DNA of 64,000 bases from Antedon bifida. Taxonomy: Eukaryota; Echinodermata; Crinoidea; Comatulida; Antedonidae. The translations under genes were made by a program, and so were the position numbers. The DNA is taken from NCBI GenBank assembly GCA_963402885.1, contig OY727096.1:16473820-16537819 (forward strand). Reading direction: 5' to 3'. Of the stretch, positions 14,001-52,968 are shown one piece after another. The number at the start of each line of letters is the position of its first letter. Position 1 is the first letter of the stretch. Below the pieces are notes generated by a model. It was not told where the DNA came from and ran no database searches. It saw only the letters and a program-made list of their open reading frames with translations.

Positions 14001-17000
14001 ATCAATGATTATTATATTATTGCTTGTCATTATTACAGTATCATAGTATGATTGAAACTATTAGGTTTTTTTACATACTTCAATTGTGGTTGTAAAATAT
14101 TTTCAAGACAATATTTTTACGAGTTTTAGCATTAAAATTAATAATTTTTGTTTTTAAAGAAAATAATATTCTATTCTAATGACTAATCCAGACTCAATTT
14201 ATTTTTATTGTGTTTCTTTTATTATTTATTCAAAAAATTTAAGTTATGAAATTAAATATAATTTTACATACTTCTACACTAGCTGAAAAAAGATGAAGTA
14301 ATAAATCTAGATTTTGTTGTCCAAAGGTAAATACTGTTTCAAAGGACATCTACGTCTCCAACTATTGTCATTTTCAACTTCAATAATTAAATATTTTAAT
14401 GTTGCTGCCTTTGTAATTAGCTACAGCAATTCTATGTGGGTGATATGAAATGATACATAACTGCAGTGGATCATTAATTCCATCTTTTTCCTGATCAATT
14501 CTTTTAATAAAATGTCCGTCACTGCTGAATAGTTGTAGTTTGTGGTGACTTGCTACAATGATGTTATCATCCACATCAACTACAACTGCTTGTGGCTTCA
14601 TCACCATACCATCTTCTTTGCCTTTATTGATGAGTACTTTAAATGACTTATCTTCATTATCATATAATACAATTTGATCATTTTCAAAATCTGCTACAAG
14701 CACTTTTCCAGTTTTTGTAAGTGTTATATCCTGGTATCCACATTTTACTTTTTTTTGTGATCCTATCTTCATCAGTTCCTTACCACTATTGATGTCAAAC
14801 ATGAACACATATTCAGTGTTCCATTCTGCTACATAAATAACATTTGTTGCCTCATCTACATGAATACCATATGGGTTTTTCAATACATCCTTACCAATGC
14901 ATTTAATCACATGACCATTCATATCACATACTTGAATGTAGTTTACATCACTGAATGCTATGTTGTTATTCTTCATTTTGTACATTCTGTAAACTTTCAC
15001 ACCTTTTGGTAGTGTAATCTTGCTGATGCATTCTCCTGATTGTTTGTACTTGTGAATTTCATTTCCAAGAAATGAAACTAGCAAATGGTCATCATCACAC
15101 TTCACTACTCCTCTAGGCTTCTTCTGAACTTTGAAATCTTTTACCAATCCTTTCTTCTCTACCTTGATAGTAAGTGGTGACTGTTTGATTGGGTTACCAT
15201 TGAAATAAACATTCAATGTACAGATTCCTGGATTCCTACATACTCCTCTTATAACATAATCATTATTATCTTCTTCAACAAGACCATTAGCTGTTTCTCC
15301 TGTTGGTTGTGTCCATGTTGCTTTCAGTTGACTTACAACAACTTTATGTGTTATGCTAATTCTGGCAACAATTGGTTGTTCTTGGGTCACACATTGAGGA
15401 CCTTTTAAAATAAGATCATCAGCTGTAATGGTGGTAACATATCCAATATTACATTGTTTCAACAAATCAATTTGATTGTTGTTACCAAAGAAGTAAATTT
15501 GTCCACTGTCTTTTTGCTTGATTTCATCTGAATCATTAATGTGATCCTTCAGTGTATTCAGTGCAATCTCACTTGACATCATAGCAGTTGCTGGTTCACT
15601 CTTCAGTGATTGATTAAGGAAACTCACATTTGTATTTAAATCGGAAGTGATTGTTCTTAATTCTTTCAGTTGCATGTCATTTATTTTCTTTTTATTTGTG
15701 TATTTTTCATCAACTTTCATTTTCATTTTGTCTGTTTTTTCCTTCATTATTTTTACCATTTCTTCAAACTGCTCATTGATACTTTTCAAACTTGCATTTT
15801 TACTTTCTTCTAATTTCATAGCATTTTCTGTTACTACGCTGATTCTATTTTCAAGTTTTTCAAGGCGCTCATGGGCAGTGTTCTTTAATTTGTCAGAAGT
15901 TCCCTTAAATATTTTGAATGCTGAGACAATGTCAATTGGTTCATGGTTTGCACCCTTTGCATGGTCCACTATTGCACATTGTATGCATATTGGTACTTTG
16001 CATTTTGTACAATACAACTCCAGTGGTTTTTTATGAGTGGAACATGATGGTGGATGTAAATTAGTAAATTGCTGTGGTGTCATTGATTGCACTTCTTCTG
16101 CAGCAAGTAGCATATGACTTGCTGATATTGGAAACATTTTGTGATGTTTACTACATGTGGAACACAAGTAATGTCTGCATTTCTTACAGTAGTATGTCAC
16201 CTGTTCTGTTGCTCCACAAACGCATTTCACTTGATCTTTCTTCTTAAATTGCTCAGTGATTTCTAATAGGTTATTAACAAATGTATTTGGTGGAAGCTTT
16301 TCAAGCCCGCCATCAGGAATGGGATGCAGTTTGCGACAAATCGGGCACGATAGCTTGCCGTGATTTGATTTTAGCCAGTTTTCTAGACATGCTAAACAGA
16401 AGCTGTGCAGGCAGGCAAGTGATCTTGGATTACATAGTGTTTCACTGCATATGCTGCATTCTAACAGCTTCTCATCTATGTTTTCAAGAAGACTTAAATC
16501 TCTACCAGTAGCCATTGTGAAATCTGAAATGACAATTACGTATTTTTATAAATATGTCTGGAGAGGATGTAATAATAGCTCTTTTGAAAGGTGTAAACTG
16601 TAAAGAATATTTCATTCCACAAGTACTTCCCTTTCTTTAAATTCTGATTCCACATCTGTGTGTAATCATAAAGTTAGTTAACTAATGCAAGAAATAGGAA
16701 ATTAAGATACAGGTGTACATGTATACTGTAGTTGCAATTCCTATATTATTACAGTTAATCAAACAAGTCTTGGTAAAATTCATCTGCAGTGCAAGACTAT
16801 TAAAGCCAACTTAGGGTTACATTTCACATTGTTACACATTATTACTAGAATTTTTATCTACAAATATTAATGTAGGTCTAGGTGAGGCTGAGACAACATT
16901 CTAAGAACATCCTTACCTTATGAAGAATGATTAACTCCTTTTTTGGTAAATCTTTTCTTTACTCGTGCTGACGTGGCCGTTGTCAAATGTAAAGTAAGCA

Positions 17001-20000
17001 GTTTTTCAGTCATGAGACCATTGTGTGATCACATTAAGTTAAACTTTAACAATTTTATCTGATATCAAGCATTGATTTTGTATTTGCTTTTCAAAATGTT
17101 TTATTAGCTCCATGGACTTTGATCCAATGACAAAGCAGTTACTTGAATTAATTAGTGTACTTAGAACAAATATAGTATGGTTTTTCCCCTAAAAAGCCAA
17201 AGCCTAGGGCCTGTTGTTTTCTAGTTGAGCATATACAGTAATTTGTATTATATAACACCTAAATAAATTCCTGTCATGACAGGAATCTATTTAGATGTTA
17301 TATAAAACAAATAATGAATGTTTTATATTCGTGTAATGGTACAAATAATGGCATTTGGTGAATGATGAAAGATTAAATATCAACCTCGTTGATATATATA
17401 TATATATTTTTTTTTTTTTTAATTTTATTATAATAATTAATAATAATTACAGAGGTTTCAAGATTCATTCTCCAGTTAATGGTGCAATGTTTTGTGATTG
17501 TTTTGGATATTGAAAAAAATCAATCTCAACAGCTGGCATGCGGACCAGATCCCGGCTGTGCATACATTTCATTATGATAAGTACAAAAATCACAAATAAG
17601 CTTTAAAAAAAAGGGTTGATGCTCTTTAAACCTTTAGGACCCCCAATTGGGGCCCCTTGAAGACGCTCCGGTCTATCTGGTCTGCAAGGTTATATTATAT
17701 ATAAATTACAATCATACTAAAAACTGTTGAGAACCTCGGCCCTGTAGTATAGTCTCAAGATCACCTTGAGCCATATTTAGAAACATACTGTACCCTCACA
17801 CCCCAGTCAATATTTACATACTGTAAAAGATTATAGCTTTGTTCAAATTATTAGTTATCCGACAATTCCATTGTGTATGTACATAACATCCCTACTCACT
17901 GTATTATTTTATCATGTACTCAGTTTATAATCAATAAATAAACATTAACGAAATATCTGATAGGGCATGGTACAGTCTATTGCAGGGCTGTCTATATAAT
18001 AATAATTTATAATAATTTATAATAATTTATTTCGGAACTTCACTTTTGTAACAGTGGCACACTTCACATTTTGAAGGTGCGTCCAACAAAAAATATATAA
18101 GAAGAAAGCACAAAATAGACAGAAAAACATAGGTAATCTTACTTAAACTACATACAGTAACATGTAATAAAACCCATTCATTCCCCTCCCTCCCCTTCTC
18201 CAAAAATAACAAGTACAACATATAATTTAAATACAGTACAAGATTACTCTTAATCTACAAAACCAATCACTAATCAACCCCACACCAACCCCCACCCACC
18301 TTACGTACAACATGACGGAAATATAAATATACAACATTTTTTCCTCCATAATTACAATATGAAAAATATAATAACCATTGTTAACAAACAGGAAATTAGA
18401 TTAGAACCAGTATTGTTTATACAACCACTTAGATCATAACTGTTAATATGCATACTATTGTATTTACAGTAACTGTTTATACAAATATAACTAGGCAAAA
18501 GTAAAAGAATTATTATGACGAAAACAATTAACAGACACTATTAAATAATTAGTTATCTACAAAACTAAACCTAATTACAAAATGACACTGCAATACAGAA
18601 CCAGACGCCTCTTAATTTATCTATTTTCTTTATTAATTAATTGAGAGCGCTTTTTCCATAATCTTTTAACATATGCTTTACAAAACCTATCAAGAATATT
18701 CATAACTTCCTTGCTGAAGAGATAATTATCACTTCCCAGAGTAAGTTGTAATTTAACATCAGAGTTCCCATTAATGAATAACTCCCAAATTTCATTATAA
18801 TCAAATGATTGCAGTTGTAACTTTAACCTTGTATTTTCATCGGTCCTTATCTCATTGAACGCAGGACATTCAAATAAAAAGTGTCTGATATTTTCTTTAC
18901 AATTATCACTACAAAGTTTACACAAACCATTACATTCTGGTGTCCAATTACATATTCTACCTTCAAGCGGGAGAGTATTTGATCGTAATTTAAACTTAAG
19001 ATTTACCCCCTCAAAGTCCGTATTATCTAACAAGTAATTCTCAAGATTAGGAATTGTTTTTAATGTAATAATCACTAAGTGAAGACTTACTTCTTCACTC
19101 CAATTTTGAATTGAAGCTTCACTAAGGGCTTGTTTGACTGCAGACGGCCAGAATGTATTGGGAATATCTTTGGAGTTACGAATACAATCAAATATATCAT
19201 TGGCGTTACCTTTCTTAAATATATTTTCTATACAGCTTAGAATCTTATAATTGAAGTCATTAAAATCACAATTGAAGGCAATTAAAGAATCAAGTAATAA
19301 CCTCGGCCATCGACTTTTTTCCATCTTTAAAACTCGATCTATGAAATTAATTCTGAAATTATTTTGTAAGTCTGATATAGGTATCCAGCCAAGATCACCG
19401 TATAATGCTGTTCGTGGAGTATTACGAGATGCTTTCAAAATGCATCGGGCCATTTGAAGTTGCAACCGTTCAAGTTTATCGGTATCGCAACTACTACCGC
19501 ACCACACAGAACATGCATAGTTAATTGAAGGAAGAGCGATTGCTTTCCACAAGATATTACCATAATATACTCGATTTAAGTTATTACAATTGTCAATAAT
19601 AGATTTTATATACGCAATAAGGCGATTCCCTTTCTTAATTACATTATCAATATGGAAGTGATCATTAAGGTTACGAGATATATATACGCCCAAATATTTA
19701 TAGTGATCTACTTCTGAAATACCATGGTTACCTAATTTCCAAATTTTAGTTTTATCAGTACGCTTGCCAATAACCATGACATTGGACTTTTCATAATTAA
19801 ATTGCAATTTCCAAACTTGTGAAAATTGGTCCGCGAGATATAACATATTTTTCATTTCGTGTTCATTGTCTGCAATCAAGACAACATCATCAGCCCAAAA
19901 CAACCCCCCTAACCAAATATCATTAATTCTTACACCGATATCATGGGATCTCAGAAGTTTTGTAAACTCATTTATAAATATGCAGAACAACACCGGTGAA

Positions 20001-23000
20001 AGGACACACCCTTGTTTCACACCTTGTTCAATACTGAATGCCTCTGTATATATATCTCCAAATTTGACATGCCCTTGAATGTTTTTATACAATAGATCTA
20101 TGATTTTCCAAACACGTCCTCTAATGCCAGAGTTCCATACGGCTTTTAAAAGGCCGTTTCTCCATACCGTATCAAAGGCTTTTCGGAAGTCCAGGAAAGC
20201 TAAGTGCGTCGTCTTTCCTTCTTTACGACGGCACGCGATAACGCTTTTTAATGTAAAGATGTGATCTTCGCATCTATGTTCTTGTCTAAAGCCTCCATGG
20301 ACTTCCGATAAGACATTATTATTCTCAAGATAACAAGAAATGTTCTGGGCAATAATTCTATTAAAAATCTTTGAAACACATGATGTCAGGGAAATTCCTC
20401 TATAATTATTAATATCTTTCCGATCACCTTTCTTAAAAATTGGTACTATAATACTAACATTCCATTCATTTGGAATAGCTTCGAGATGAATAATTCTATT
20501 AAATAACTCTAAAATAGAATGATGCAGTATTTCACCACCATTCTTTAACAATTCGTTTGTAATATAGTCGGTTCCTGGAGCTTTATTATTTTTGGCAAGT
20601 GAGATTGCCTCGGCCACAATATCAAAATTAATTTCTATATCATATATACAGTTATCATCGTTGTTTCTTGATTGATCAAGTTTATCATGTCGAATTTGTT
20701 CAACAAACTTATTCGTTATAAAAGAGCTACTATCATTCATATTTATCTTCATTTTACCTAATGTTTCCCAATATTGTTTTATAGTTTGGTTCATCATCTT
20801 CCTGTCTGATATAACCTCATTTGACCCAGGAACCCTGATACAATCAACCTTATTTTTATTATAATTTTGCTTAGATCCTCTAAGAAATTTCCAAAAATCT
20901 TTACATGAGGGACCTCCTTTTTTTGCAATATCAACCGACTGTTTAACATTCTTTTCAAGAATTTTTTCTTTAATCAAAGATTTTGCATGAATACGCTTTT
21001 GTTGATAAGAAAGCCAAAGACAATTGCTTGTACCAGCATCTTGGTCTTTTGACTTTACATAATGTCTATGAAGTCTGGCAGCCTTCTTCCTTTCTTTTAT
21101 AGCTTCATTTACTTGTTTATCAAACCATGGTTTTCGTTTACCCTTTATCTCTTTAACTCCTATGGCTTCAGTTGCCGCGGATATTACAATAACTTTCCAA
21201 GAATCCCAGAGGTCATTGACGTTATCAAAAGAATTGGCATTCCAATTAATAAAACTATCTCTCAATTTTTCACGGTAATTTGTGAAATCTTGTTCATTCT
21301 TAATGTTCCATAATTTTGATTTTGGTTGATACACTATGTTAGGTTTTTGAGGTTGGATATTAAGTGATAATAATAAAGTATTATGGTCGCTACCTAATCC
21401 ATATTTTCTTTCTTCATCCACAAGTAATTCATTAACAGAGTTAATTATATTTTTAGAACATAACATGTAGTCTATTGTGGTTCTTTGATTTGCTCTAAAC
21501 CATGTAATTTTACCGTTACAAAAAATTGTAGAATTTAAAATTGTCATGTTTGCATTATCTTTAAAATGCAGCAACCTCTCACCATTAGAGTTAAGTGTTG
21601 GGTCACCGTTAATTATGTTATTACCTATTCTTGCGTTAAAATCACCCATTATTAAAATATATGGATCATCATCAACATTAAGATTTTCAATTTGAATTAT
21701 TTCGGACAGTAATTGATTATATAGTTCATCTGTAATTTCCACATTAGAACCTTCCACTGGGAAATAACAAATAGCAATATACATAGATCTATTACAATTA
21801 AAGCTAACCTTAACCCATAATCTTTCAAAGTTATCTGACATACAATCAAGAGCATTATCATCGAGAATTGTAATATTATTCGAAATATAAATACCTACAC
21901 CACCCCCACCTTTACCAACTCTGTTTTTACCAATCCAACGATAATTATCAATATCAACTCCCATTTCGTTCTTAAGAAACGTTTCGGCAACCCCAAACAT
22001 GTGAATATTATTGTTATTTAAAAAATTTGAAATTTCATATAATTTTGGCCTTAGTCTATTCACATTATTAAATGCGATTTTAATATCTATAACGTTATTA
22101 AAATTCGATTTACCTTTTTTACCTCCTCGACGATGGCGATGTCTTTTCCGATTTACGTTTGTCTTATTAATGTTATGTTCTTCAATTTGACGAGGAGCAA
22201 CTGTGTCCGACGTATCAAGTTCATCAATTAAAACTGTATATCTGTTTAGTGAATAGTGTTCTGTATTGTGAGAATGTTCTGTATTGCAGGCAAAATCCTA
22301 TGTACCCCGACTAGTTGGTTCGAAATCGCGATTGTAATGTTGATTTCGTCGGCTGGTCTTCCTCGTATGCTGTTGGTTCCATTCAGGAGAAAAGGCATGC
22401 ATGTTGTTGTCTCGGTGTTGCCTATTTCCATAACCGGGTTGATAATAACACTGCCATGTATTATGATTTTTCATCCCACACAGCTTACAATACATTTGAT
22501 TGTAAATCAATTTTTGTCGCTGGTGTTTCTTGTTTGGTTGTTGCTTACTTGGTTTTGCCGATTGCTTAGGTATGATCATGTGTACATCATTAATACTGTG
22601 CAACAGAGCGTGAGTTCCTTGTCTTGTGAGATGTAAACCTCCCTTGTTCAGATTACTTCGAACGATTTCTCCGCTTCTCAACAGAAGCGACTCATCATTG
22701 TCAACAACAACGCAATTTTCAGTGTTTCTAGCGATGTCTCTGATGGACTCATTTAGTCTAGACACGCGCTTTTGATAATCTGGATTATCCAGCCGGGGAC
22801 AGATGGTAGATAGTACGATCTTTGGTGTAATCGGTCTTTTCTGTAGATCCTTAATCATTTTTTGATAGTTGGCAATACCGGATTCAAGCTTTTCGGTTGA
22901 CGTACAGTTGTTAGTGCCAACATGAACCACAACAGTGCTAAACGCTTGGTCCGAGTCCAGCCTTTTGTTTAGTTTCGAATCAATATCCTGAATCCTTCCG

Positions 23001-26000
23001 CCACGCAAACAAATCACCTCTGCATCGATTAGCCCTCGTTCCTTAATGTCTCTAATCATTGAGTCGCCTATCAAAAGTGTGGCTGGAAGTTGCTTAGAGT
23101 TTCCGGTGTCGAGTGGAATATTTTCTTTCGGGGTAGTCTGAGTTGTAACAGCGGTGGTTGTATCGACAATAATGTCTGATCTAGGCACTATTGGTTGATC
23201 ATGATGATGTTGTGAAACCGAAGTATAGTTTTTCAACTTAACTTGTAGGTTCTCGATATTTACAGATTGTTCACTGATAATTTTCGACAATGACCTAATC
23301 TCCTTATTTAGATCAGTTATCACAGCTTCGTGGTCCGAATTAAGTCGTAGTAATGTCTTAATTGTTCTGGGTATGTCCTTACACAGTGGACATATCCACC
23401 CCTTCATGTTCGATGTAGACTTAACATTAAGGCATACTCTATGGAAATGTTCCTGGCATAAAGTACATATAAGTGGTTTCCCTTTGTCAATATGGCCAGC
23501 TTGACAGTTATCTAAACATTGAATCCTAGACAAAGTTTGTGAGTCAGCGATAGATTTATCGTAACTAGTTGAAGGTAAATCTTCTAATTGTAAATCGACG
23601 TCAATATTACTTGAAGAGTTCGTTGTATTGTTAGTAGGCCCAGCCATTATCGATTATTCTTATTCAAGGCCGACGCTTGGCTTGTGGCGTGGGTACCCGG
23701 TGGCGTGGGTACCTTTCAAAGTTGGCGGTTAATTAAGCGAAAATTTGCTTACCTCAGTATTGATAGATTACCACAAAAAATCACTTGATGTATAACATGG
23801 TTTGAACTACTTGGTCAACACATTGATGAATACCTATAGTACATGATTTCTCACGCTAATTTAGCAAATTACTGCGAAATAGAGAAATTCTAATGAAAGA
23901 TTTGAAGAGCCTCCGTAGACCACGTCCGCTCCGTCCGGTATCAATTATATTTTTTAACCTTAACTCTAAACAGTATTTGCTGACAATAAAGGGTCACATC
24001 ACACATAAAACAATATAATGTAGCAAATCACAAAAAAACAGACGAAAAATAACATAAACAAAAATCAAAGATAACAGGTTATAAAAGATAATTTTACATT
24101 TGAGATAAATTATTTGTATTATTTCTCTAAATATACCTGATAGATAAACAATAAAACGATTGAACCCTTGTATTACATCTACTACATTATAAACATGTTT
24201 ATACATGACCAGTCAGCCATGCAAACAGGAGGAGTCAACTGAATATACAGCAACGACCTTCCAAATAGCCATTCTTATGTCCTATTCTAATAGACTATCA
24301 TCAATTACTTTTATATATATTTTTTTATATTAAATGGCTTAATCTAACCTACTTACATTTTTGCCATGTCCATCTTTTCCAACTCCACACAGAGTGCTTC
24401 CTGAGATTGAAAAGCTACGCAAGAAAAACATGTATTTATTGAGTTTTGTTTCAAATTCCTATATTTGGCTGTAAAGCTCTGTCTACACTATCAAACTGTT
24501 TTTTATTTTGTGTTGTGCCCATATATGGTCATGATGATGTCATATCACTACCTTATTTGGGCACATCACACTTTTTTTTGTCAAACTATTTAATAGTGTA
24601 GACAGAACTTTAGATGGGTAAAATAATCAAAATAAAATTTCAATATTAATTTTTTTACCTGAGAGCAAACAAAGAGTGGACATGTGTTTTAAACATAGCA
24701 AGACACTGTCCACTATGAAAGTTCCACACTCGGACAACACTTAAACGTCCAGTTTGACCAGATGCCAAAAGATGACCATTCCCATTCAAAGAGAGAGATG
24801 AAATCTATATTAAATATTACAACAAATGTTATAAATACCACAATAGAAAACTACAATATGGTTTTTGTGTTGACAAATTCTAATCTAATTTATATTCTAT
24901 ATCCAAATTGACTTGTTTCACACAAAAACTAGTCTATGGGTCAAAGGCATTCTGATATGATGTAACTGGTTAGCCACCTCCCACATCTCGATATTGTTAT
25001 TTAAACCATTACTTTTTCTTTCTTATTTATTTACCCAATATAAAGCATTAACATGGTGAGGTGGTTTCCTGATTAATCGTACGATAAAAACGGTAATGGG
25101 TGATCAACTAGCGTTCGTGTTCCCACCTAATCTACCATTCATAGAAGTACTGATGAAGATATCAATCTGTGGCGACAATAGAATGGACCCGAGACCTGGC
25201 TATCTTCGACTTTTAAATAATAGAAATTTTTGAAAAATTTGTTAGGCTAGAAATGTACGTTGTATGATGTGTATGTTTATTGAAAAATGGTTGTAGTTTT
25301 CTAAATTACATTGTACAAGTTGCGATGAGAAAACTGTTATTTGATCGTTAGTTAACGTGTACATAAAGTAAAATATAAATAAAATAAAATTTGTTAGTAA
25401 AACTTTTAATAAGAATAAAGATATAAACATAAATCAATATAATAGTGTATATATCACGGGAGGGGCTAAAAATAATAAAAACTAACACTTTTATTTGGGT
25501 TAGGTCAAATTTATTCTAAAGCTTTCATCATGGACCTATAAATTAGATAGGGCCATGCTTTCACAAAGCTTTATTTTAACCCAGAACTGATGGTACAAAG
25601 ATCCCTTTAAAAAATATGATGTTTTTTTGGGCCTCATCATAATAACAACTTGTTTTTTACTGTACCTTATCCGTGTGACCAATGAAATATCTCTGCTTGC
25701 CATTACTTGCATCCATTGATACAACCACAGCATGGCAAGGGTAAATAATGCGAGTGCCATCCTTTGACCAAATTGCCTAGGGTTTAAATGAAACAAAACT
25801 TAGTGTAGAAGAGAGAGAGTATACAAGATCTAAATTTTAATTACGTTCAGCTTGTTGAAAAGAAATTTAACTCTGCCTGGTTAAATAGTTCTCTTCATTC
25901 ATTCATTAGTGAATACAAATGTATTGTTAAAAAAAACAAAAAAAAAAAAACCTCTGTAGTAGAGTAACCACCAAAACCCACAATTCTTCGCAATGCTAAA

Positions 26001-26646: not shown

Positions 26647-29600
26647 CTGTGAACAGCCTGGAGGCCACAGTTTTTATCCGATTCTCACCAAATTTGGCAA
26701 CAATGATCTATGCCCCAAAAGCTCGGACGAGTTCGAATTTGAGGGGAAAAGGTCATAGGTCAAGGTCACAACTAACAAAAAACTATTTTACTGCCTAGAG
26801 ACCACAGTTTTTATCCGATTCTCACCAAACTTAGCCACAATGATCAATGACACATCATATAATTGTGGTTAAATTTTGAAGGGTCAGGGTCAAAGATCAA
26901 GGTCCACAAAAAACTAAAAAAAAAGAAATAAAAAAATAATAAAAAAAAAAAAAACCCAAGTGGGACTTCAACCAGCGATCTCAACTGTGAGAGGCTGGAT
27001 ACATAACCATTACACCACACTGTCATCCACAACTTTGTAGTGTGCAGTTAACATATTTAGACTTAGAACTAATAAAAAAAAATGTAAAAAAAAAATATTC
27101 AGGGGGCATTTTATGTAGGGGAATTTTACAGTAGGCGGAGGTTTGTACTCTCGGAGTACCCTCTAGTTATTATTATTATTACTACTATAATGAAATGATG
27201 TTTCCGCTTCACTTACCAATCCTGATGCAGCATCATGCCTATGTAAATGAGATAATATACTCACCAATCCTGATGCAGCATCATGCCTATGTAAATGAGA
27301 TAATATACTCACCAATCCTGATGCAGCATCATGCCTATGCAAATGAGATAATGTACTCACCAATCCTGATGCAGCATCATGCCTATGTAAATGAGATAAT
27401 GTACTCACCAATCCTGATGCAGCATCATGCCTATGTAAATGAGATAATGTACTCACCAATCCTGATGCAGCATCATGCCTATGTATATGAGATAATATAC
27501 TCACCAATCATGATGCAGCATCATGCCTATGTAAATGAGATAATGTACTCACCAATCCTGATGCAGCATCATGCCTATGTAAATGAGATAATATACTCAC
27601 CAATCCTGATGCAGCATCATGCCTATGTAAATGAGATAATGTACTCACCAATCCTGATGCAGCATCATGCCTATGCAAATGAGATAATGTACTCACCAAT
27701 CCTGATGCAGCATCATGCCTATGTAAATGAGATAATATACTCACCAATCCTGATGCAGCATCATGCCTATGTAAATGAGATAATGTACTCACCAATCCTG
27801 ATGTAGCATCATGCCTATGTAAATGAGATAATATACTCACCAATCCTGATGCAGCATCATGCCTATGTAAATGAGATAATATACTCACCAATCCTGATGC
27901 AGCATCATGCCTATGTAAATGAGATAATGTACTCACCAATCCTGATTCAGCATCATGCCTATGTAAATGAGATAATGTACTCACCAATCCTGATTCAGCA
28001 TCATGCCTATGTAAATGAGATAATATACTCACCAATCCTGATTCAGCATCATGCCTATGTAAATGAGATAATGTACTCACCAATCCTGATTCAGCATCAC
28101 GCCTATGTAAATGAGATAATATACTCACCAATCCTGATTCAGCATCATGCCTATGTAAATGAGATAATGTACTCACCAATCCTGATGCAGCATCATGCCT
28201 ATGTAAATTAGATAATGTACTCACCAATCCTGATGCAGCATCATGCCTATGTAAATGAGATAATGTACTCACCAATCCTGATGCAGCATCATGCCTATGT
28301 ATATGAGATAATGTACTCACCAATCCTGATGCAGCATCATGCCTATGTAAATGAGATAATGTACTCACCAATCCTGATGCAGCATCATGCCTATGTAAAT
28401 AAGATAATGTACTCACCAATCCTGATGCAGCATCATGCCTATGTAAATAAGATAATGTACTCACCAATCCTGATGCAGCATCATGCCTATGTAAATGAGA
28501 TAATGTACTCACCAATCCTGATGCAGCATCATGCCTATGTATATGAGATAATGTACTCACCAATCCTGATGCAGCATCATGCCTATGTATATGAGATAAT
28601 GTACTCACCAATCCTGATGCAGCATCATGCCTATGTAAATGAGATAATGTACTCACCAATCCTGATGCAGCATCATGCCTATGTATATGAGATAATGTAC
28701 TCACCAATCCTGATGCAGCATCATGCCTATGTAAATAAGATAATGTACTCACCAATCCTGATGCAGCATCATGCCTATGTAAATGAGATAATGTACTCAC
28801 CAATCCTGATGCAGCATCATGCCTATGTAAATGAGATAATATACTCACCAATCCTGATGCAGCATCATGCCTATGTAAATGAGATAATGTACTCACCAAT
28901 CCTGATGCAGCATCATGCCTATGCAAATGAGATAATGTACTCACCAATCCTGATGCAGCATCATGCCTATGTAAATGAGATAATGTACTCACCAATCCTG
29001 ATGCAGCATCATGCCTATGTAAATGAGATAATGTACTCACCAATCCTGATGCAGCATCATGCCTATGTAAATGAGATAATGTACTCACCAATCCTGATGC
29101 AGCATTATGCCTATGTAAATGAGATAATGTACTCACCAATCCTGATGCAGTATCATGCCTATGTAAATGAGATAATGTACTCACCAATCCTGATGCAGCA
29201 TCATGCCTATGTAAATGAGATAATGTACTCACCAATCCTGATTCAGCATCATGCCTATGTAAATGAGATAATGTACTCACCAATCCTGATGCAGCATCAT
29301 GCCTATGTAAATGAGATAATGTACTCACCAATCCTGATTCAGCATCATGCCTATGTAAATGAGATAATGTACTCACCAATCCTGATGCAGCATCATGCCT
29401 ATGTAAATGAGATAATGTACTCACCAATCCTGATGCAGCATTATGCCTATGTAAATGAGATAATGTACTCACCAATCCTGATGCAGTATCATGCCTATGT
29501 AAATGAGATAATGTACTCACCAATCCTGATGCAGCATCATGCCTATGTAAATGAGATAATGTACTCACCAATCCTGATTCAGCATCATGCCTATGTAAAT

Positions 29601-32600
29601 GAGATAATGTACTCACCAATCCTGATTCAGCATCATGCCTATGTAAATGAGATAATGTACTCACCAATCCTGATGCAGCATCATGCCTATGTAAATGAGA
29701 TAATGTACTCACCAATCCTGATGTAGCATCATGCCTATGTAAATGAGATAATGTACTCACCAATCCTGATGCAGCATCATGCCTATGTAAATGAGATAAT
29801 GTACTCACCAATCCTGATGCAGCATCATGCCTATGTATATGAGATAATGTACTCACCAATCCTGATTCAGCATCATGCCTATGTAAATGAGATAATGTAC
29901 TCACCAATCCTGATGCAGCATCATGCCTATGTAAATGAGATAATGTACTCACCAATCCTGATGCAGCATCATGCCTATGTAAATGAGATAATGTACTCAC
30001 CAATCCTGATGCAGTATCATGCCTATGTAAATGAGATAATATACTCACCAATCCTGATGCAGCATCATGCCTATGTAAATTAGATAATGTACTTACCAAT
30101 CCTGATGCAGCATCATGTCTATGTAAATGAGATAATGTACTCACCAATCCTGATGCAGTATCATGCCTATGTAAATGAGATAATGTACTCACCAATCCTG
30201 ATGCAGCATCATGCCTATGAAAATGAGATAATGTACTCACCAATCCTGATGCAGCATCATGCCTATGTAAATGAGATAATGTACTCACCAATCCTGATGC
30301 AGCATCATGCTTATGTAAATGAGATAATGTACTCACCAATCCTGATGCAGTATCATGCCTATGTAAATGAGATAATGTACTCACCAATCCTGATGCAGCA
30401 TCATGCCTATGCAAATGAGATAATGTACTCACCAATCCTGATGCAGCATCATGCCTATGTAAATGAGATAATGTACTCACCAATCCTGATGCAGCATCAT
30501 GCCTATGCAAATGAGATAATGTACTCACCAATCCTGATGCAGCATCATGCTTATGTAAATGAGATAATGTACTCACCAATCCTGATGCAGCACCATTCCT
30601 ATGCAAATGTGATAAGGTACATACCAATCATGATGCAGCATTATGCCTATGTAAATGAGATAATGTACTAACCAATCCTGATGCAGCATCATGCCTATGT
30701 AAATGAGATAATGTACTCACCAATCCTGATGCAGCATCATGCCTATGTAAATGAGATAATGTACTCACCAATCCTGATGCAGCATCATGCCTATGTAAAT
30801 GAGATAATGTACTCACCAATCCTGATGCAGTATCATGTCTATGTAAATGAGATAATGTACTCACCAATCCTGATGCAGTATCATGCCTATGTAAATGAGA
30901 TAATGTACTCACCAATCCTGATGCAGCATCATGCCTATGTAAATGAGATAATGTACTCACCAATCCTGATGCAGCATCATGCCTATGTAAATGAGATAAT
31001 GTACTCACCAATCCTGATGCAGCATCATGCTTATGTAAATGAGATAATGTACTCACCAATCCTGATGCAGCATCATACATATGCAAATGAGATAATGTAC
31101 TCACCAATCCTGATGCAGCATCATGCTTATGTAAATGAGATAATGTACTCACCAATCCTGATGCAGCATCATACATATGCAAATGAGATAATGTACTCAC
31201 CAATCCTGATGCAGCATCATGCTTATGTAAATGAGATAATGTACTCACCAATCCTGATGCAGCATCATACATATGCAAATGAGATAATGTACTCACCAAT
31301 CCTGATGTAGCAACATGCCCATGTAAATGAGATAAGGTACTCACCAATCCTGATGCAGCATCATGCCTATGTAAATGAGATAAGGTACTCACCAATCCTG
31401 ATGCAGCATCATGCTTATGTAAATGGGATAATGTACTCACCAATCCTGATGCAGCATCATGCCTATGTAAATGAGATAATGTACTCACCAATCCTGATGC
31501 AGCATCATGCCTATGTAAATGAGATAATGTACTCACCAATCCTGATGCAGCATCATGCCTATGTAAATGAGATAATGTACTAACCAATCCTGATGCAGCA
31601 TCATGCCTATGTAAATGAGATAATGTACTCACCAATCCTGATGCAGCATCATGCCTATGTAAATGAGATAATGTACTCACCAATCCTGATGCAGCATCAT
31701 GCCTATGTAAATGAGATAATGTACTCACCAATCCTGATGCAGCATCATGCCTATGTAAATGAGATAATGTACATACCAATCATGATGCAGCATTATGCCT
31801 ATGTAAATGAGATAATGTACTCACCAATCCTGATGCAGCATCATGCCTATGTAAATGAGATAATGTACTCACCAATCCTGATGCAGCATCATGCCCATGT
31901 AAATGAGATAATGTACTCACCAATCCTGATGCAGCATCATGCCTATGTAAATGAGATAATGTACTCACCAATCCTGATGCAGCATCATGCCTATGTAAAT
32001 GAGATAATGTACTCACCAATCCTGATGCAGCATCATGCCTATGTAAATGAGATAATGTACATACCAATCATGATGCAGCATTATGCCTATGTAAATGAGA
32101 TAATGTACTAACCAATCCTGATGCAGCATCATGCCTATGTAAAGTGACATTATCCTGATCCTTAGCAAACACATGCACTTCTCCTTGTTCTCCTACGTGA
32201 ACTGATGGGTCTTTACTCGATAAGTTCACGGTAGGTAGTTGAGCGGTCACCTTGGGACGGCGCTTCCGCTCTTTCTTTGGCTTGGTAAGATTATCCATTT
32301 GAGTCACACGTTCATCAGTTTTCTTGTCAACCTGTAATGATATAGAAACAAGAACAATTCTTTAAACAAATATTTCTTGGTGATTACTCACTATTTGATA
32401 CTGGATAACTGTAAACATTCAATACAAGGTTTGCATTGTAAATAACACTACTAAAGTATGGTTTGTGGTACACCATGTGTTTCCACAAGGAAATAAAATA
32501 TTGTTCTAAAAATGGTTCGAAAAACGTTTCTACCAGAGAACCTTCTGGAGAACCTTAAGCCCATTTTCCATGGTGGTGGTAGCATAACAATAGAGACAGC

Positions 32601-44518: not shown

Positions 44519-47387
44519 ATGTCATATTACGGTTACGGGAACTGCAGAGAAGATTACATTGGTCCAGTCCAATGTGGAAAGCCATTGCTCTCAAAGCTTA
44601 GATCTTTCTACTACAAACATGCTGTTATTGATAAATCTGTACGAACGGAAGCTAGGCATGTATTGGAGAAGATCATAGAAAAGTTTAAAATGTATACAAG
44701 AAGTACAAGCGTGAAGTATGAATTTGGTGAATTGATTCGCCAGGGCAGTAGCTTTGAAGGTCTGAGGGTAACTAAGCCTATTGAGTTTGATCTACTTGTA
44801 CCAATAACCCTGAATGGCCAAGCCTTTCTTAGAGAGATGAAGGAGGCATCAGGATACTATTTCATATATAGCAGTGATGATATTTGGAAGAAATGTATCA
44901 TAGATGGTATGCTAAGTCCAATAAAAATTAACCGTAGGATGCAAGCAGTGGTAAATGATGCAATTGAATTTATGAAAATACAACTCCCAGGATATGACAT
45001 CAAAATGCGTGATCAAGGTGCAGCGAAGAGGCTTCGTGTAAAACATGGTGATGTCACTATTGATATTGATTTGGTTCCTGCTGTAAAGCTACAAGGAGGA
45101 GAATATCTTGTTGCCAAACGTCATCACCAAGCAGACTATTACCATTCAATGATGCCTCTTGCTGATAATATATTCAACCATATCTGGCGAATGAGTTACT
45201 CTGAACAAGAGAAAGAAGTTATAAATAGAATGGATGAAGTGCATCGTGCATGTCTTAAGATTTTAAAGGCAATTGCAGCTTCAGATCAGCATCGTTCACA
45301 ATTTGGAAAGGTGAAATCATACCATCTCAAAACCTGCCTGCTTCTTCTAAATGAAAGAAATGCGGAATCGTGGAAGGAAAACGATCTTGATATTTGGTTT
45401 AAAGGACTTATTAATATTTTAATAGAGTTCTTACAGGTAGAGGACTCCAAACTGAATTGTTTCTTTAATAGAGATATTAATTTGTTCCAACCAATCAGTG
45501 ATAGTACTTTGGACAATTTAAAAAACTGGTTGCGCCGCATAAGCAGAAGTGATGAAACCCTCATGGCAGTCCTAGACAGGTAAGACAACTCAATATACTG
45601 TACTGTGATAAATCAAAAAATAAAAACCAATTAAAAAGAAGAATTATGGAAGTCTTAAACAGGTAACTACTGTACTGTTACAATCCAACCAATCTATCAA
45701 AAGTCAAAAGTGACAGGCTACGCATGTGTAAGTTAAAAAAATAGTGAAAATATGCTAAATTTTAAAAAATTTATATAGATTGTCAGAATGCTCGGGAACC
45801 CCTATTTTGCATTTCATTTTTTAAAAGTGAATGTATCATATGCATGATTTATTATGAAATTAAGAGAAAAAACATTGATTAAGTCATCATTAATTGCATC
45901 AAATTTGTTTGAATTAATTTCGATAATCAAACAAATTATGACATTTTCTTAAGCCGAAATAACAAACTTAACATTAACTTTCTTCCTTAAAATGTTCACA
46001 GTGCATCATTTTGATGTCATCATAGTAAAAAATTCTAATTCACTACAGGATGTAATAATCTATCTGCACCAAAGTGGTTACTGCATAGTAAATACACGGA
46101 GGAATCTTTCTACAACTTTTAGTCAGCTGTGTATGGTTCAGGTGGTCTGTGCTGGGAAACGAAACAAAATTTTGTTTAAAAATATCCATATTGTTTGTTC
46201 AATTTTATTTCTTAATGTATAGATTATACATATGATCTATATTGAAATCTAGATAAAAAGTAACTTGTTTCTTTATTATTATGTAACAAATGTGGTTTAT
46301 GACATTATACACAGAGGGATCTTTGATCGGATTGTGATACGAGCTATTGTATTTGCGTTAGCAAGATCCTATGATATATTATAAGTATTTAAAGATTTGA
46401 GAAAATCAATCAATATATCTTTTAAAAATAAATTATCTTTATTTAAATCAATGCTTATAACCTATAATTCGTCATAGAGACAAATTAAATCTAGTTAATA
46501 ACTTTAATTTTTAAATTTCAGCCCTACAGATAAATATATAATATAATTTTCAACTTTTGACCAGCATGAAAAACATATTGTTGAATTTAGGTTGTTTGGA
46601 GTAACTACCATTCTCCAAAATATTCATACTGTAATATGTTTACTTTTTGTAATCTATTTCTTTTACTTAGTATACAGGATGAGAAAGACGACAATGATGA
46701 TGATGGCGACAATGATGATGATGGCGGCAATGATGAGGATGACGATAATAATGAAAATGAAGCACAAGAAGAACAAGCTAGTGGTGGACTGGGATCATGG
46801 ATGGGAACTGCTGCTGCTGTGGGTACAGTTGCAGCATTTGGTTTGGCTGTAGCATTTTCCTATCTCAGTACAAGGTATGTGGACAATCATCATTCCATGA
46901 GATGTGGCAACGCCGAATTGTAAACTATTATTTATTAATAAATAAAAATGTACTGTACTATATTAAACACAGAAATCTTTGTAATGTTTTATTCTAAAAT
47001 TAAGACTTTTACACTTGGTGTATCTCAAGGACCATCTCTCGAACCACTCCAAAGTTATTCCTTACAAACGTCACCAGACTACCAGTACACCTTACTGTAC
47101 TACCAATCCCCTACACACCCAACGATATTTCTATTCTATTTTTGTAATTTCATTCCAGCAGTGATTTTGAAATTAAGGTGTACTCCATCGACTCACGAAC
47201 ACAGACAACATACACAAACTTGTCTTCTTCATCCACTGTCAGAGACTTGAAGACAAAGATATTCAGCAGGCAAGGAATACCTGTGTATCGCCAAAGACTT
47301 ACCTACAATGGTAGAGTATTAGAAAATTCACAAACGCTTGGTGAATATGGAATCCAAGAAGGTTCAACAGTGAAATTACACAATTAA
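44519..47387 (+). CDS. cGAS-like nucleotidyltransferase with acidic linker, membrane segment and C-terminal ubiquitin-like domain (about 497 aa)
   Basis: Exons are 44519-45579, 46671-46874 and 47159 (or 47162)-47387; both junctions are phase 2. Residues 1-353 form a Mab21/cGAS-like enzyme: GSSFEGLRV (G76, S77), E89 and D91 in IEFDLLVP, a third acidic site at D182/D184 in TIDIDLVPAV, and SYHLKTCLLLL. The metal-binding residues look intact. No cGAS-type zinc thumb was seen. Residues 357-388 are an Asp/Asn/Glu linker, about 395-419 are a hydrophobic predicted membrane segment, and about 424-497 resemble ubiquitin (TVRDLKTKIFSRQGIPVYRQ; GEYGIQEGSTVKL) without a terminal GG. Family role: cGAS-like receptors sense nucleic acid and make cyclic dinucleotides for STING. 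Activity and topology here are inferred. The start follows an acceptor at 44506; AATAAA follows the stop at 47402. Confidence 0.88.
45580..46670 (+). other. Intron 1 of the cGAS-like gene
   Basis: GTAAGA donor and TTTTACTTAG acceptor. The interior is AT-rich with no further exon or repeat recognised. Confidence 0.75.
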
Positions 47388-47401
47388 TTTTTGATTGATT
47401 T

Positions 47402-47407
47402 AATAAA
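47402..47407 (+). terminator. AATAAA polyadenylation signal of the cGAS-like gene
   Basis: It lies 15 bases after the stop codon. Another AATAAA lies at about 47690 and could be the main one. Confidence 0.5.
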
Positions 47408-48006
47408 ATAGTATGCAGTTATTGGCGAATGATTTCAATTTTATTTAACATTTAAATGTAGTTAATGTTTTGTATTCATGGCGAATAACTAGTAAAGTCA
47501 GTTTGCGGTACACATTGTGTTTCCAAAAAGGAAAAAATAAAGACTTTTGTTTGTTATGCTGCAATCGTCAACTGCAATAATGTTAGTGATTGGTCGTATT
47601 TATAGCTGAATCCAAATACTGTAATAATAATATTTGATCTCATCTGTATATTAGTGATTTGTTAATGAATTGAATGTAATTTTGGTCTCAATAAATGTCT
47701 TTTCTGGCATCAAATAACTCTTTGTGTGTGTCCTTATGGTAGAGATTTCATTGACATAATAGAATCTGCAGATATGTCACCTAAAAATCAAAAGAGAATG
47801 ATAATTGTAAATATGTGCATGCAGATCCAAATGCTGTGCTTTGTTGAAGGCTTCTATGTACTGTGAATGTTTGCAATTCTATTATTGACTAATTGTAGGC
47901 AGACATGTAAAGTAAAGTTCTTTTTTCGTTGATAATTGGATAATCTGAAAGCCATGAGTTAGACACCTTACCATAATACTAAGTTTTCTGTGATTATTGC
48001 AAACCA

Positions 48007-49766
48007 TTAGACATTAATCCAGTCCTCAGGTGGCTTAGGACAGTCTTTTGGCACAGTGAAGAAAGTGCCTGGATCATCAATATTGGGTACAAAGTCAGCA
48101 AAGGTGTTTGTTGTGAGTGTCAAACCTGAAAATTTAGGATTCAGAAATTGAAATTGTTACAATTGTTTTAATACCCTTATTTACTATATCTCGAAACCAT
48201 GGGATACAATAGACTAAACTATCCAACAAGGATTGGTTTAATTAATCAAGAACACTGAGCTCGCCTTGCCAAGATAGGAACTTGTAACATCAGTCGTGGA
48301 ATTGACCATGTCACAGCCACAGATAAACCCTTTGATCTCTGGAGCTCAGCATCCTGTTGTTAGATTGCCTTGGTTTAATATGCTCTATTACAACTGTATG
48401 CATGACTTGCCTGAAGTCTGTAGTATTATCTTTAAATGTTAGTCCACCAGTTGACGTTTAAATTTTTGTTGAGTAAGAGCTCACGTATTACACATTTATT
48501 AAATGTCATGTGTGCCAAAATATTGATCTTTTGAACAATATTAAGTTGAAATGCAGTCAAGACAACTGTATGCCCCACATACCTTCTTTACTGTATGTGT
48601 ATGTTGTTATATCTATTGGAATACACTTGTCAGTAACGGTGTAGCTAGAGTTTATAGCTCCAGACTTCACCATCCATTGGTGGCCATTTAACACTCCTCC
48701 AATCACAAGGCTGCCGAGATAGGTTGCATCATCTAACATGAGCAAGAATATAAATGCATTGCTTAAGTTACTGTATAAATAGTATGCTTTTAAACAATTT
48801 TATAGGTGTAATAAAGTATTCTACGCACCCGAAATGCAAGGAGATGACATGTTTTGTGTCAGTTTTTCCACTGTGCATTTGTTGTTTACAATTGTCCATT
48901 TTGCAGACTACGAAATAAAGCATAATATAATAGTATTTTACAAACTTTAATACAGTATATAGGGGTCACCTTAGAGACCCAACAGGTCCCTGCAGGAAAG
49001 TGTCCCCTTAATATGAGTTTCCCAAAAAGGATGTGTACTTTACTGTATTTAGTATCCTTTCTAACTCATGTTTCAATATTGGTTTTAATTTTATGGTTTA
49101 AAGCAGGACAAAGAGAATAAAAGTAATACATACCAATTTGTAGTCACTAATGGTGTGACTTTTAACAGGGAACACGCCCACTGATGTAGTCACGTTTAAA
49201 CTGTTAAACGATCCAACTAGTTTACTGGTAAAGTCATATGCGAAAGTTTCCCTTCCCACCGATAATGTTCCAACAGCTGTCGATGTATTCATATTCATCA
49301 CACTCACTATCGTTTGACCTGTAAATACAGTCAGTTTTATGGAAAGAAAAGAAAAAAGATAATTCATACCTTTGCTTAAGTGATACTGTAGTTTCCCATT
49401 TTGCTTATTGGCCCAGTAAATCAAATTGAATTTCAAGAAACTAATAAAAACACATGCATTTATTATTTTAAACATATGCATAGAGTATGACTGTTTATAG
49501 AAAGAAAATAGTTAGACTTAACCAGCAAATTGGTATTATTATATGATGAATCACACACCAATTTTAACAGAATGCCATTATTAAGGTAGGACGTATTAAC
49601 AGCAATATAGAGGCCCAAATTCTTCACTTACTCCTCTGACGGTATGCTTACCCAATGAGGCTTGATATTGGTTCGGCAAACAGCATGGCTTTTGACCATT
49701 TGCAAAATAAAATACTGAAATCAACAACAAAAGAAATTTCACCGGATTATGACGCATTGATGACAT
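48007..49766 (-). CDS. Ependymin-related secreted protein (215 aa, 5 exons)
   Basis: Exons, 5' to 3': 49652-49766, 49134-49318, 48829-48907, 48583-48732, 48007-48125. All junctions are GT-AG and the phases close to 648 bases. The product begins with a signal peptide (FLLLLISVFYFANG), then QKPCCLPNQYQASL, matching the PCC-P-QF start of mammalian ependymin-related proteins. Later come TFAYDFTSKLVGSF, CTVEKL...SPCIS, DATYLGSLVIGG, YTVTDKCIPI and DPGTFFTVPKDCPKPP, all in family order with the conserved cysteines. Family role: secreted, calcium-responsive glycoproteins with a hydrophobic-ligand pocket, often lysosomal or extracellular. It is convergent with the cGAS-like gene and divergent from coilin. 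It appears complete, and its length is normal. Confidence 0.9.
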
Positions 49767-50152
49767 CTTTGATCAGAGTATTATTGTTTCTGCTGTCTTT
49801 ACCATGCAATAAGTCTACTGTCCAAGTTCACACAGGTTTTTGTCCCAGATTTATTGCAAATATACCTTGTGATATGGGCTAAATTTTAGAAAGTATTTAC
49901 AGTAGATACTGTTTGTTTTGTAAACGCAGTGTACTAAATTCAAAGTTCATAGTGGTAGTTCTGATATCAATCAATCATTTCAACAAGGGATAAAGTAAAT
50001 AGTAGTTTAAATTCATGAAAGGAACAAAGGATATGCTAACTGTATATTGTCTTTCATGCCCAAACGGCGTTCCATACAATAACATTTCTTACTACGCTCG
50101 AGTAATCGTAAACGCTCGAGTTAAGGTTTTGCAGCACGCTGTTTATCGAAAA
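49767..50152. promoter_or_regulatory. Divergent promoter region of the ependymin-related gene and coilin
   Basis: 386 bases separate the two start codons, which point away from each other. No TATA box was recognised with confidence. A longer in-frame coilin start at 50015 lies within it. Confidence 0.6.
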
Positions 50153-52968
50153 ATGGCTGTCAGGATAAAGTTAATATTTGACGGCGTTGATATCAAGAAA
50201 TGTATGTTCCTTGTTGATTCAAAACATATAATAATTAAAGACTTAGAAAGGGGTATTAAAAAACGTTTTCTTATTGAGAAATCATCCAAAGTGTCTTTAT
50301 TTATTGATGACTTTATTCTACCCTCAAAGGACGGTATTGAGTTGATACACGATAACGACATTGTCTTCGTGAGGTAAGCTACATTAAATCTGCTATTGGC
50401 TGTTTCAAAAGGGCCTAGCTTTTATAGTTATCTTTTTGCGTAGTTATGCTTTATGGATAGTTTTATCATGCTAATTAATTCTTTTACCTTCCTTCTATAC
50501 TCTCTCTTCTATTTGTGAGGCTTAGGTAGGTAGGTTATTATTCTTGCAATACAAATTACAAACAATATGTTTAGTATAGGCTAGTAGTTGGTACAACACA
50601 AGAAGGCTATGAAAAAAGTATATATGATGCTAAGATCCTACTTTGTTTTTTTCAATTGATAATTTTTCAGGGTTCGACTGAAACCAGATGTTTCTGTTTG
50701 TTTAGATGATTGTGAAACTAAAAAAGAGAAAATTAAGAAACGAAAAAGGAAATCTTCAGGAACTGCTGAAAACAGTCAGCTGCTAACAGCTTGTACGCCA
50801 AGCGAGAATGACATTGACAAAAAACTATTATTAGTGAACGAATCAGTAAATAAAAAGAAAAAGGTAGAAGAAGTAAATGATACAGAAAGTGCGAAGAAGA
50901 ATAAAAAAATTGATAAGAAAAAGAAACACAAATTCAAAAAAAGTAATAGTGAAAAAAGTTTGGATAGAGTACAATGTAATTCACAAACGAACACTAACGA
51001 TGAAACTGAAGTAATTAGTAAAAAACAAGCAAAATCATCTCAATTGGAAAAGGTGCTTGATAAAGACAATGTATCGAAAGAATCTAAAAAGAAAAAGCAA
51101 ACAGCAACAATGGACGTACAGAGTAGTAGTAGTGATAGCTCTAGTTCCGATACTTCATCTTCAGATGGTAACAAAAGACCAAGAATTAAATGGAACACTG
51201 AGCTAAGTAAAACTAAAAACAACATTACCACCAATAAGCAAGGGACTAAAAATGCGGTTGAAGTATCGACGGCCAGCGTAGATAACAAAACAAAGGTCAA
51301 GGTTCGTCAGGTGAAGGAGAACGGTGACAAAAAGCACATATTCTTCGAGTCTGATCCAGATAGTAGCAGCGACGATGATACTGATCTTGGAAATATTCAA
51401 GAAGAGACTGGGAATGAAGTGGGAATAAAATCAACAGAAATGAATGATGAAAATAAGGATGACAGATGGGAGGGGGAAGAAATTCAGGAAATGAATAGCG
51501 AGGTTTTAAGGAATCAGGTGATACAGAAGGAAGTGGTTGAGAAGGTAAAAATATTTTTAACTCTACAACAATAACTAAGCATCAGCAAGATTTTTGTAAA
51601 AGTAGGTATACTACTATTACATTTGTTTACGAATTACATTTTTGTTATTTTAGCAGCCCACCAATTTGCCTCCACCTCCATCAAGAGACTACAGCAAATT
51701 AAGTCCACTTATAGGACCACCAAGAGTAGGAGATGTTATTTGTTATAAGGTAAAGTTTTTCATGTTTTTTTTACCTAAATAATATACTATCAATTACAAT
51801 GATTTAAAAAATCGTGTATATGTAACCATAGAAATAAATGTCACCCTACTACAGAGGGCGTTCAGGAAGAGACCTCATGGGTTGAGTCATGTTGTTGAGC
51901 CAGGTTGTGTTGGAACAACCCAATAAGTCTCTATTATTGATAACTTCCACTATATGATTTTGTTTTGTTAGATTTTGGAACTTTCAGCAAGTTACATGCC
52001 AGAAGTGTCTGCATATAAGGTAAATATCATACATGATCTAAATCAAGAAATTAGACAATTAGTGTAGTATACAAAAGGGAAACCTTTGTGGTCAACAGAA
52101 AATCTGTTTACAAAAATTATCTTACTATTGAAATGTGAAGAACAGACTGTCAACTGAGATTTTCTGCCTGAAGTGCCCTTATGTCGACATGGAACTCAAC
52201 TCAACTGTGTTGACATAAGTGCTCCGAGCAACTGAACGCAACTGACAGGCACAAAAAAATGTTGCTTTCAGTTGCCCATGTTCTACTTTTTTTCGGAACT
52301 GAAAACTTCGAATCAAGTCACGCGACCAATAGGGATCAGTTCAATTTTACTTTAAAAGCTCACACATACTGGTTCCTATACAAATATATATATACGTGTT
52401 GTGCAAGTAAGGTAACCATGACTAGTTACAATCAGTTCCAGTGTTGACATATGTGCTCGCACACTGATTCCTTTCAGTTCCATTGATCAAAATTTCGACA
52501 TAAGCACTCTCGCGCAACTAGTTCCTTTCAGTTGAGTGGGGTTGAGTCTAGTTCCGTGTCGACATAAGGGCCCCTTAAACGAAGTCATCCAGTTTTTTAA
52601 TCCAACATATTATCTGATTTCTCTCTCTAGGAAGGAAAGGTAATGGAATATGATGCGACCTCACAATCTGTAACACTAGAATTATGTGAAGGATTCACAT
52701 CAAGTGAAAATATGAAACGTGAGGGACGGTTTGAGATGGAACTAGATGAAGAATACACACAAGATAACACAGAACATGAGAATGTGGTATGTATAAATAT
52801 AATGTAGATTTTGCCACAACAAATATACAAATGTGGAGAAAGAATTTGTGAAGCAAATTATGCTAATTAATAAGATATATTTTTGCTAGAATTGTAGTAG
52901 TGTATTATATTACCTTACAGGTTTCTGTGCAATGGTCAGCAGTTATGGCTCCAAGACTTATCACATAG
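50153..52968 (+). CDS. COIL: Coilin, Cajal body scaffold (480 aa, 6 exons)
   Basis: Exons are 50153-50373, 50671-51544, 51654-51749, 51972-52019, 52631-52786 and 52921-52968, all GT-AG and in phase. The N-terminal domain (MAVRIKLIFDGVDIKKCMFL; then ELIHDNDIVFVRVRLKP) matches coilin's ubiquitin-like self-association domain. The middle is long, basic and serine-rich with KKKRK-type nuclear signals and SDSSSSDTSSSD. The C-terminal Tudor-like domain reads RDYSKLSPLIGPPRVGDVIC, then ILELSASYMPEVSAYKEGKV, and ends in VMAPRLIT. Role: organises Cajal bodies and binds snRNP factors. The start at 50153 was chosen by fit to the family; an upstream in-frame ATG at 50015 would add 46 unrelated residues. 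The acceptor at 51653 is a tandem NAGNAG. Confidence 0.93.
52171..52576. mobile_element. 406-bp inverted-repeat element in a coilin intron
   Basis: The ends AAGTGCCCTTATGTCGACAT and ATGTCGACAT-like ...GTCGACATAAGGGCCCCTT are inverted, and the match continues inward through GGAACTCAACTC and GAGTCTAGTTCC. The TGACATAAGTGC motif is repeated inside. No coding frame. Confidence 0.8.

Follow-up and report, generated by a model that had tools for sequence, protein, structure and literature searches.

A cGAS-like receptor gene model with a ubiquitin-like C-terminal domain in Antedon bifida, and relatives that end in diglycine

The central result of this analysis is that a stretch of Antedon bifida DNA of 64,000 nucleotides (hereafter the window, C9:16473820-16537819, where C9 is its contig) holds, at 44519-47387 on the plus strand, what reads as one three-exon gene with inferred exon joins encoding 497 amino acids, in which a Mab-21-type enzyme of the cGAS-like receptor (cGLR) kind is followed by a ubiquitin-like domain. 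We lean, by a modest degree, toward the interpretation that this is one member of a family of cGLRs with a ubiquitin-like C-terminal domain, and that the tail controls the site or the assembly in which signalling occurs, being attached to proteins in sister genes that end in diglycine and acting non-covalently in the window gene. This view draws on domain content, motif residues, fitting splice phases, a domain order that recurs nine times across two contigs, and selection of the purifying kind on both domains when two copies are compared; the mechanism proposed below goes beyond these observations.

Gene model and recurrence of the domain order

The features of the gene are collected in Table 1. 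Re-reading of the DNA bore out the coordinates, frames and splice phases of the three exons as originally predicted, with each intron crossed by two carried-over bases, and the Pfam matches and fitting phases agree with the prediction of one gene model that unites a cGAS-like enzyme with a ubiquitin-like domain. The HMM search proposed at that time, run with Pfam, found all the expected families—Mab-21 at residues 79-235 (E=1.7e-17), Mab-21_C at 243-336 (E=6.1e-14) and a single ubiquitin domain at 436-496 (E=4.9e-19)—each far over its cut-off. A stand-alone ubiquitin-like gene in the window was considered and rejected because its frame is without a Met.

Table 1. Features of the window gene (window positions; slashes mark exon boundaries) and loci at which a ubiquitin match follows a Mab-21 match (contig positions)
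Feature	Position	Strand	Description or basis
Exon 1	44519..45579	+	Mab-21 nucleotidyltransferase and helix bundle, residues 1-353 plus two bases; 3' AG/GTAAG
Q75-G76-S77 activation-loop motif	44741..44749	+	alignment with relatives
E89-F90-D91, first two presumed catalytic acids	44783..44791	+	alignment with relatives
D184, presumed third catalytic acid	45068..45070	+	invariant in alignment
Intron 1	45580..46670	+	GT-AG; unspliced reading leads to a stop at 45581-45583
Exon 2	46671..46874	+	acidic simple-repeat linker and hydrophobic segment; acttag/TATAC ... TACAAG/GTATG
Hydrophobic Ala/Gly/Val-rich segment, residues about 398-419	46801..46866	+	Kyte-Doolittle
Intron 2	46875..47158	+	GT-AG
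Exon 3	47159..47387	+	ubiquitin-like domain; starts ttccag/CAGTG; terminates as VKLHN-stop, lacking diglycine; open frame without Met
AATAAA	47402..47407	+	directly 3' of stop, polyadenylation-like; hexamer also elsewhere in locus, e.g. 46937
Mab-21/ubiquitin pairs, cluster A	C9:15725665 (A3), 15731395 (A4), 15735912 (A5), 15760566 (A6), 15765603 (A7)		
Mab-21/ubiquitin pairs, others	C9:16428893, 16472440, 16518572 (window gene), C12:6238392		

The same arrangement recurs across the genome. A search of the assembly (315.6 Mb, 27 contigs) gave 53 Mab-21 and 69 ubiquitin matches, which are counts of matches rather than of genes, and nine of the 53 Mab-21 matches have a ubiquitin match about 1.2-2.6 kb downstream on the same strand, against about 0.017 such pairs expected under independence. 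These nine pairs are not independent events, given tandem duplication, and the two groups on C9 and the copy on C12 lie far apart; the order of Mab-21 followed by ubiquitin is more than chance in this genome. In the gene models of A3, A5 and A7, splicing leads directly from the enzyme exon into the ubiquitin-like one, in the same phase.

Comparison with the C12 copy indicates that both domains have been maintained. Blastn gives three matches between the two genes, all within exons 1 to 3 apart from one that extends five bases beyond a donor; the 3' end and donor site of exon 2 align with the C12 copy, whose model includes two small linking exons picked by eye. By our own NG86 script, dN and dS are 0.330 and 1.078 for the enzyme exon and 0.373 and 0.999 for the ubiquitin-like exon, near-equal values that point to like age and like constraint. 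In this pair of genes, both domains are under purifying selection.

Taken as separate genes lying side by side, the enzyme and the ubiquitin-like part would account for the stop that is reached in frame just past the exon 1 donor when the intron is left unspliced, and for the AATAAA within intron 2. Such an arrangement is highly improbable, since it would leave a ubiquitin-like gene without a Met, phases that fit in A3, A5 and A7 as well as in the window gene, one order repeated nine times over two contigs, and synonymous divergence that is equal in both exons.

Enzyme core, linker and hydrophobic segment

The enzyme exon has the hallmarks of a cGLR. According to excerpts of PMC9980059, the cGLR active-site motif is h[QT]GS - X8-20 - [DE]h[DE]h - X50-90 - h[DE]h. 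In the window protein we find QGS at 75-77, E89/D91 and, by hand count, 88 residues to I181-D182 or 90 to I183-D184; the one departure here is that Arg, rather than a hydrophobic residue, precedes the Q. The last spacing is 91, 91 and 102 in A3, A5 and A7, all over the limit of 90. Another cGLR criterion is homology that spans both enzyme core and C-terminal helix bundle, and the Pfam and PDB matches show it. By its sequence, the window protein thus has the features that PMC9980059, as excerpted, sets for cGLRs, with small departures. The catalytic core had been predicted to comprise the GS motif, E89, D91, D182 and D184; when the window protein is aligned with three relatives, Q75, G76, S77, E89, D91 and D184 are invariant, which upholds the prediction except for D182, which varies.

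Known structures place the exon among several related proteins. Its best PDB sequence match is MID51 (2.1e-13, over residues 23-337), followed by cGAS-like receptor 1 (8gjy, 2.2e-11) and a Mab-21 domain protein (7lt2, 7.3e-9), both matching in the helix bundle only (221-344 for 8gjy), and by cGAS (1.4e-7, from residue 4 or 22 to residue 324). An AlphaFold single-sequence model of exon 1 reached a pLDDT of 36, too low for use. Because MID51 ranks first in the PDB and a MID51-like family is also matched in Pfam (1e-6), the gene product might be read as an organelle factor with a membrane anchor, like MiD49/51, with which it shares the enzyme fold, rather than as a maker of a nucleotide signal. 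That is very unlikely: Mab-21 and Mab-21_C score far higher, and the matched MID51 chain has H-I-Q where the window protein has E-F-D. MiD proteins are anchored in the membrane by an N-terminal segment, whereas the N-terminus of the window protein is not hydrophobic (by eye) and its two best hydropathy windows both lie in exon 2. A further difference from the MiD proteins is the additional ubiquitin-like domain.

Relatives of the enzyme were also sought outside animals. Among viral contigs, 48 pattern matches included none that is a relative by tblastn, and a pattern-limited scan of prokaryote genomes gave 20 pattern matches, again with no enzyme relative by tblastn. Elsewhere in the assembly, a long ORF with ankyrin-like repeats (by eye) lies ahead of a Mab-21 match at C1:1870000-1876999.

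Exon 2 joins the two domains through the predicted run of Asp, Asn and Glu, which is present and, read directly from the sequence, is encoded by a GAT/GAC/AAT simple repeat. The hydrophobic segment that had been described after it is there as well, but it is weak or borderline, with a best 19-residue Kyte-Doolittle mean of 1.83. Anchoring in a membrane by this segment, such as the organelle tether originally proposed, would be plausible. If it were a true single span, the membrane would separate the enzyme from the ubiquitin-like domain, an arrangement hard to square with a role in recruiting a cytosolic partner. One might then picture a true single-span anchor with the ubiquitin-like domain in the lumen, serving a structural role outside the ubiquitin system, and the value in the window gene together with that of 2.38 in two close copies whose ubiquitin parts are damaged speaks for such an anchor. 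We regard it as quite unlikely, because the segment is weak and Ala/Gly-rich in the window gene and the corresponding stretch of the C12 copy reaches 1.25. Along their whole length, A3 and A7 have no window above 0.93 and 1.01, respectively.

Ubiquitin-like tails with and without a diglycine end

The tail of the window gene resembles ubiquitin in fold but not at its end. Polyubiquitin, ISG15 and an OAS-family chain (7sbi) are among the best 60 of 362 PDB matches of exon 3. An AlphaFold model of the ubiquitin-like exon alone has a pLDDT of 62, which suffices for Foldseek matches to ubiquitin (53 matches at E<=0.001, many of high rmsd) and not for fine detail. In the window tail, the Ile44 patch of ubiquitin is altered (I44T, V70H). 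As had been predicted, the fold comes without the C-terminal diglycine of a conjugatable ubiquitin-like protein: the protein ends in VKLHN, and a pattern scan of 47140-50500 found no diglycine near a stop.

The sister genes of cluster A differ in this respect. A3 and A5 end in GRLRGG plus one Arg, A7 in GRLRGG, and A4 and A6 in GRVRGG, in all five with plain stops after the diglycine end and no good splice donor there (by eye). These ends suggest that part of the family is built for covalent attachment. The ubiquitin-like domains of A3 and A7 are 42% identical over their aligned length, with synonymous sites saturated; all six residues of GRLRGG are the same in both, and five of the six codons differ. 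Arg72 of ubiquitin is retained in all five genes, and Arg42 in A3-A6 but not in A7. Since the enzyme exon of A4 has a frame break and the last whole codon of exon 1 is a stop in A4 and A6, intact models are available for three of the five (A3, A5 and A7). The C12 copy ends differently again (C12:6236299 and upstream): a hydrophobic unit of ~19 residues is repeated in frame about four times ahead of the stop. Versions with and without a conjugation end—VKLHN in the window gene, hydrophobic repeats in the C12 copy, diglycine in A3-A7—therefore coexist in one genome. At another locus, C10:2473000-2492999, there are seven consecutive ubiquitin-like ORFs, four of which end in diglycine and a stop, with no match there to the Mab-21 exon of the window gene.

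Other copies have lost or broken tails. At C9:16428893 and 16472440, close copies have stops within the ubiquitin-like part and damaged enzyme exons, and behind copy C9:16467941 a ubiquitin-like match was looked for and none was found. At window positions 402-575 (C9:16474221-16474394), there is a ubiquitin-like exon with an internal TGA, behind a close copy whose enzyme exon precedes the window. Two cluster A genes, at 15714569 and 15720099, stop after the enzyme exon, with relic-like letters behind (by eye). For four genes at C9:15.82-15.85 Mb, no ubiquitin-like match reaches significance; an open hydrophobic stretch lies behind one of them and a matching stretch with a stop behind two others, none of these being joined to the genes in models. 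Broken ubiquitin parts at two close copies, absence at a third and the missing diglycine of the window gene would all suit a decaying copy in which the enzyme alone still counts and the ubiquitin-like end is a remnant. We consider this unlikely, given that the window gene has an open frame of 497 codons and that comparison with the C12 copy shows purifying selection on its ubiquitin-like exon.

Trees recover parts of this history. In the enzyme tree of 17 rows (which left out A4, the C9:15831303 gene, copy 16428893 and other Mab-21 matches), the window gene, the C12 copy and two close copies group with 100/100 support and A1-A3, A5 and A6 with 98/99, links between clades being weak; in the ubiquitin-like tree of 13 rows, A7, the window/C12 genes and A3-A6 stand in no settled order. 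Phase and place make a single origin of the fusion likely, a point that the trees do not settle.

Possible mechanism and relation to known systems

On the interpretation toward which we lean, a foreign ligand would be sensed and the enzyme would make a cyclic nucleotide for STING, while the ubiquitin-like tail would set the place and assembly in which the enzyme works. The assembly has 15 STING ligand-binding matches, 14 of them over cut-off, all in one 44 kb stretch (C9:20658532-20702487), so such a pathway may be available. In sister genes with GRLRGG, the tail would probably be activated via the ubiquitin E1-E2 route and then joined to proteins, the enzyme itself perhaps among them, leading to clustering and higher output on the model of bacterial cGAS (with Cap2) and of avian OASL. 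Without a diglycine, the window tail could act only as a non-covalent ubiquitin mimic, like that of mammalian OASL, and its hydrophobic exon may give membrane association or self-association in place of attachment. Against this interpretation stand the frequent loss or damage of the tail in other copies, the trees, from which a single origin of the fusion does not emerge, the varying strength of the hydrophobic segment and the altered Ile44 patch of the window tail. A bolder version, which we hold to be possible but doubtful, is that cGLRs are themselves ubiquitin-type modifiers: sister genes would carry their own tag, attached by ordinary ubiquitin enzymes as an animal counterpart of Cap2 conjugation, and the window lineage would have swapped attachment for a hydrophobic anchor.

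Three known systems bear on this. First, animal cGLRs share with the window gene the Mab-21 nucleotidyltransferase and helix bundle, the QGS, the three acids and the presence of many copies alongside STING. Excerpts of PMC9980059, a preprint, report that 87% of 3,020 curated cGLRs have no appended signalling domain and name TPR, ankyrin, death-domain and multi-cGLR fusions; the word "ubiquitin" is absent from its main text, as distinct from its Table S2 of fused domains.

Second, the original prediction named no described receptor with its own membrane anchor and ubiquitin-like domain; it overlooked OASL, a described nucleotidyltransferase-fold sensor with C-terminal ubiquitin-like domains, as in the window gene. 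In OASL, an OAS enzyme carries two tandem ubiquitin-like domains, in contrast to Mab-21 with one here, and none of the window protein's 16 Pfam matches (up to E=1) is to an OAS family. We know of no hydrophobic exon in OASL. Excerpts of PMC8764230 state that avian OASL ends in LRLRGG while mammalian OASL lacks the motif, and that transfected chicken OASL forms conjugates in cells, mostly with itself; according to these and to excerpts of PMC4446440, the mammalian tail can substitute for K63 polyubiquitin on RIG-I. The avian and mammalian split parallels that between cluster A and the window gene. Since OAS proteins of lower Metazoa are reported, in excerpts of PMC6307210, to be without ubiquitin-like domains, the Mab-21 fusion looks separate and the likeness of the window gene to OASL is probably convergence.

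Third, the earlier comparison with conjugation in CBASS is more apt than could be seen from the window gene, because sister genes carry a diglycine. In excerpts of PMC10097602, Cap2 links the C-terminal glycine of bacterial cGAS to other proteins, which raises cGAMP output, and here too a cGAS relative would be conjugated through its own C-terminus in the diglycine genes. Conjugated CBASS cGAS has no ubiquitin fold, a single C-terminal Gly or Ala and its own Cap2, and sits in an operon with Cap2 and Cap3, whereas the present family has a domain of ubiquitin type; R-x-R-G-G occurs there in sister genes and not in the window gene, which is an intron-bearing eukaryote gene ending in Asn.

A nucleotidyltransferase sensor with a ubiquitin-like tail is thus already known; the open-access papers searched gave no case in which the receptor is of Mab-21 type and comes in conjugation-ready and hydrophobic versions, and no record of a cGLR-ubiquitin fusion. 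If true, our interpretation would make this the third arrival at the same design, after bacterial Cap2 and avian OASL, and tails with and without a diglycine in one genome would offer natural pairs for testing the role of conjugation.

Outside this gene family, COX1 on contig C27 was read with genetic codes 4, 5 and 9, of which code 9, used by echinoderms and also by flatworms, gives the best fit as judged by eye and from known COX1 letters. The rest of the window holds further elements. Two intronless TRIM-type ORFs, similar by eye, lie on the minus strand at 8302-10452 and 14380-16545, with RING, B-box and NHL over Pfam cut-offs and filamin under its own; near a ubiquitin-tailed receptor, they are possible ubiquitin ligases. 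There is a partial NHL-like ORF at 12829-13188. A retrotransposon-like ORF pair, reverse-transcriptase-like by eye, occupies 18617-23653 on the minus strand, its second ORF matching GDSL over and PHD under the Pfam cut-off, and a long tandem satellite of ~48 bases per unit (from a 16-residue translated repeat), open in several frames, extends over about 27100-32100.
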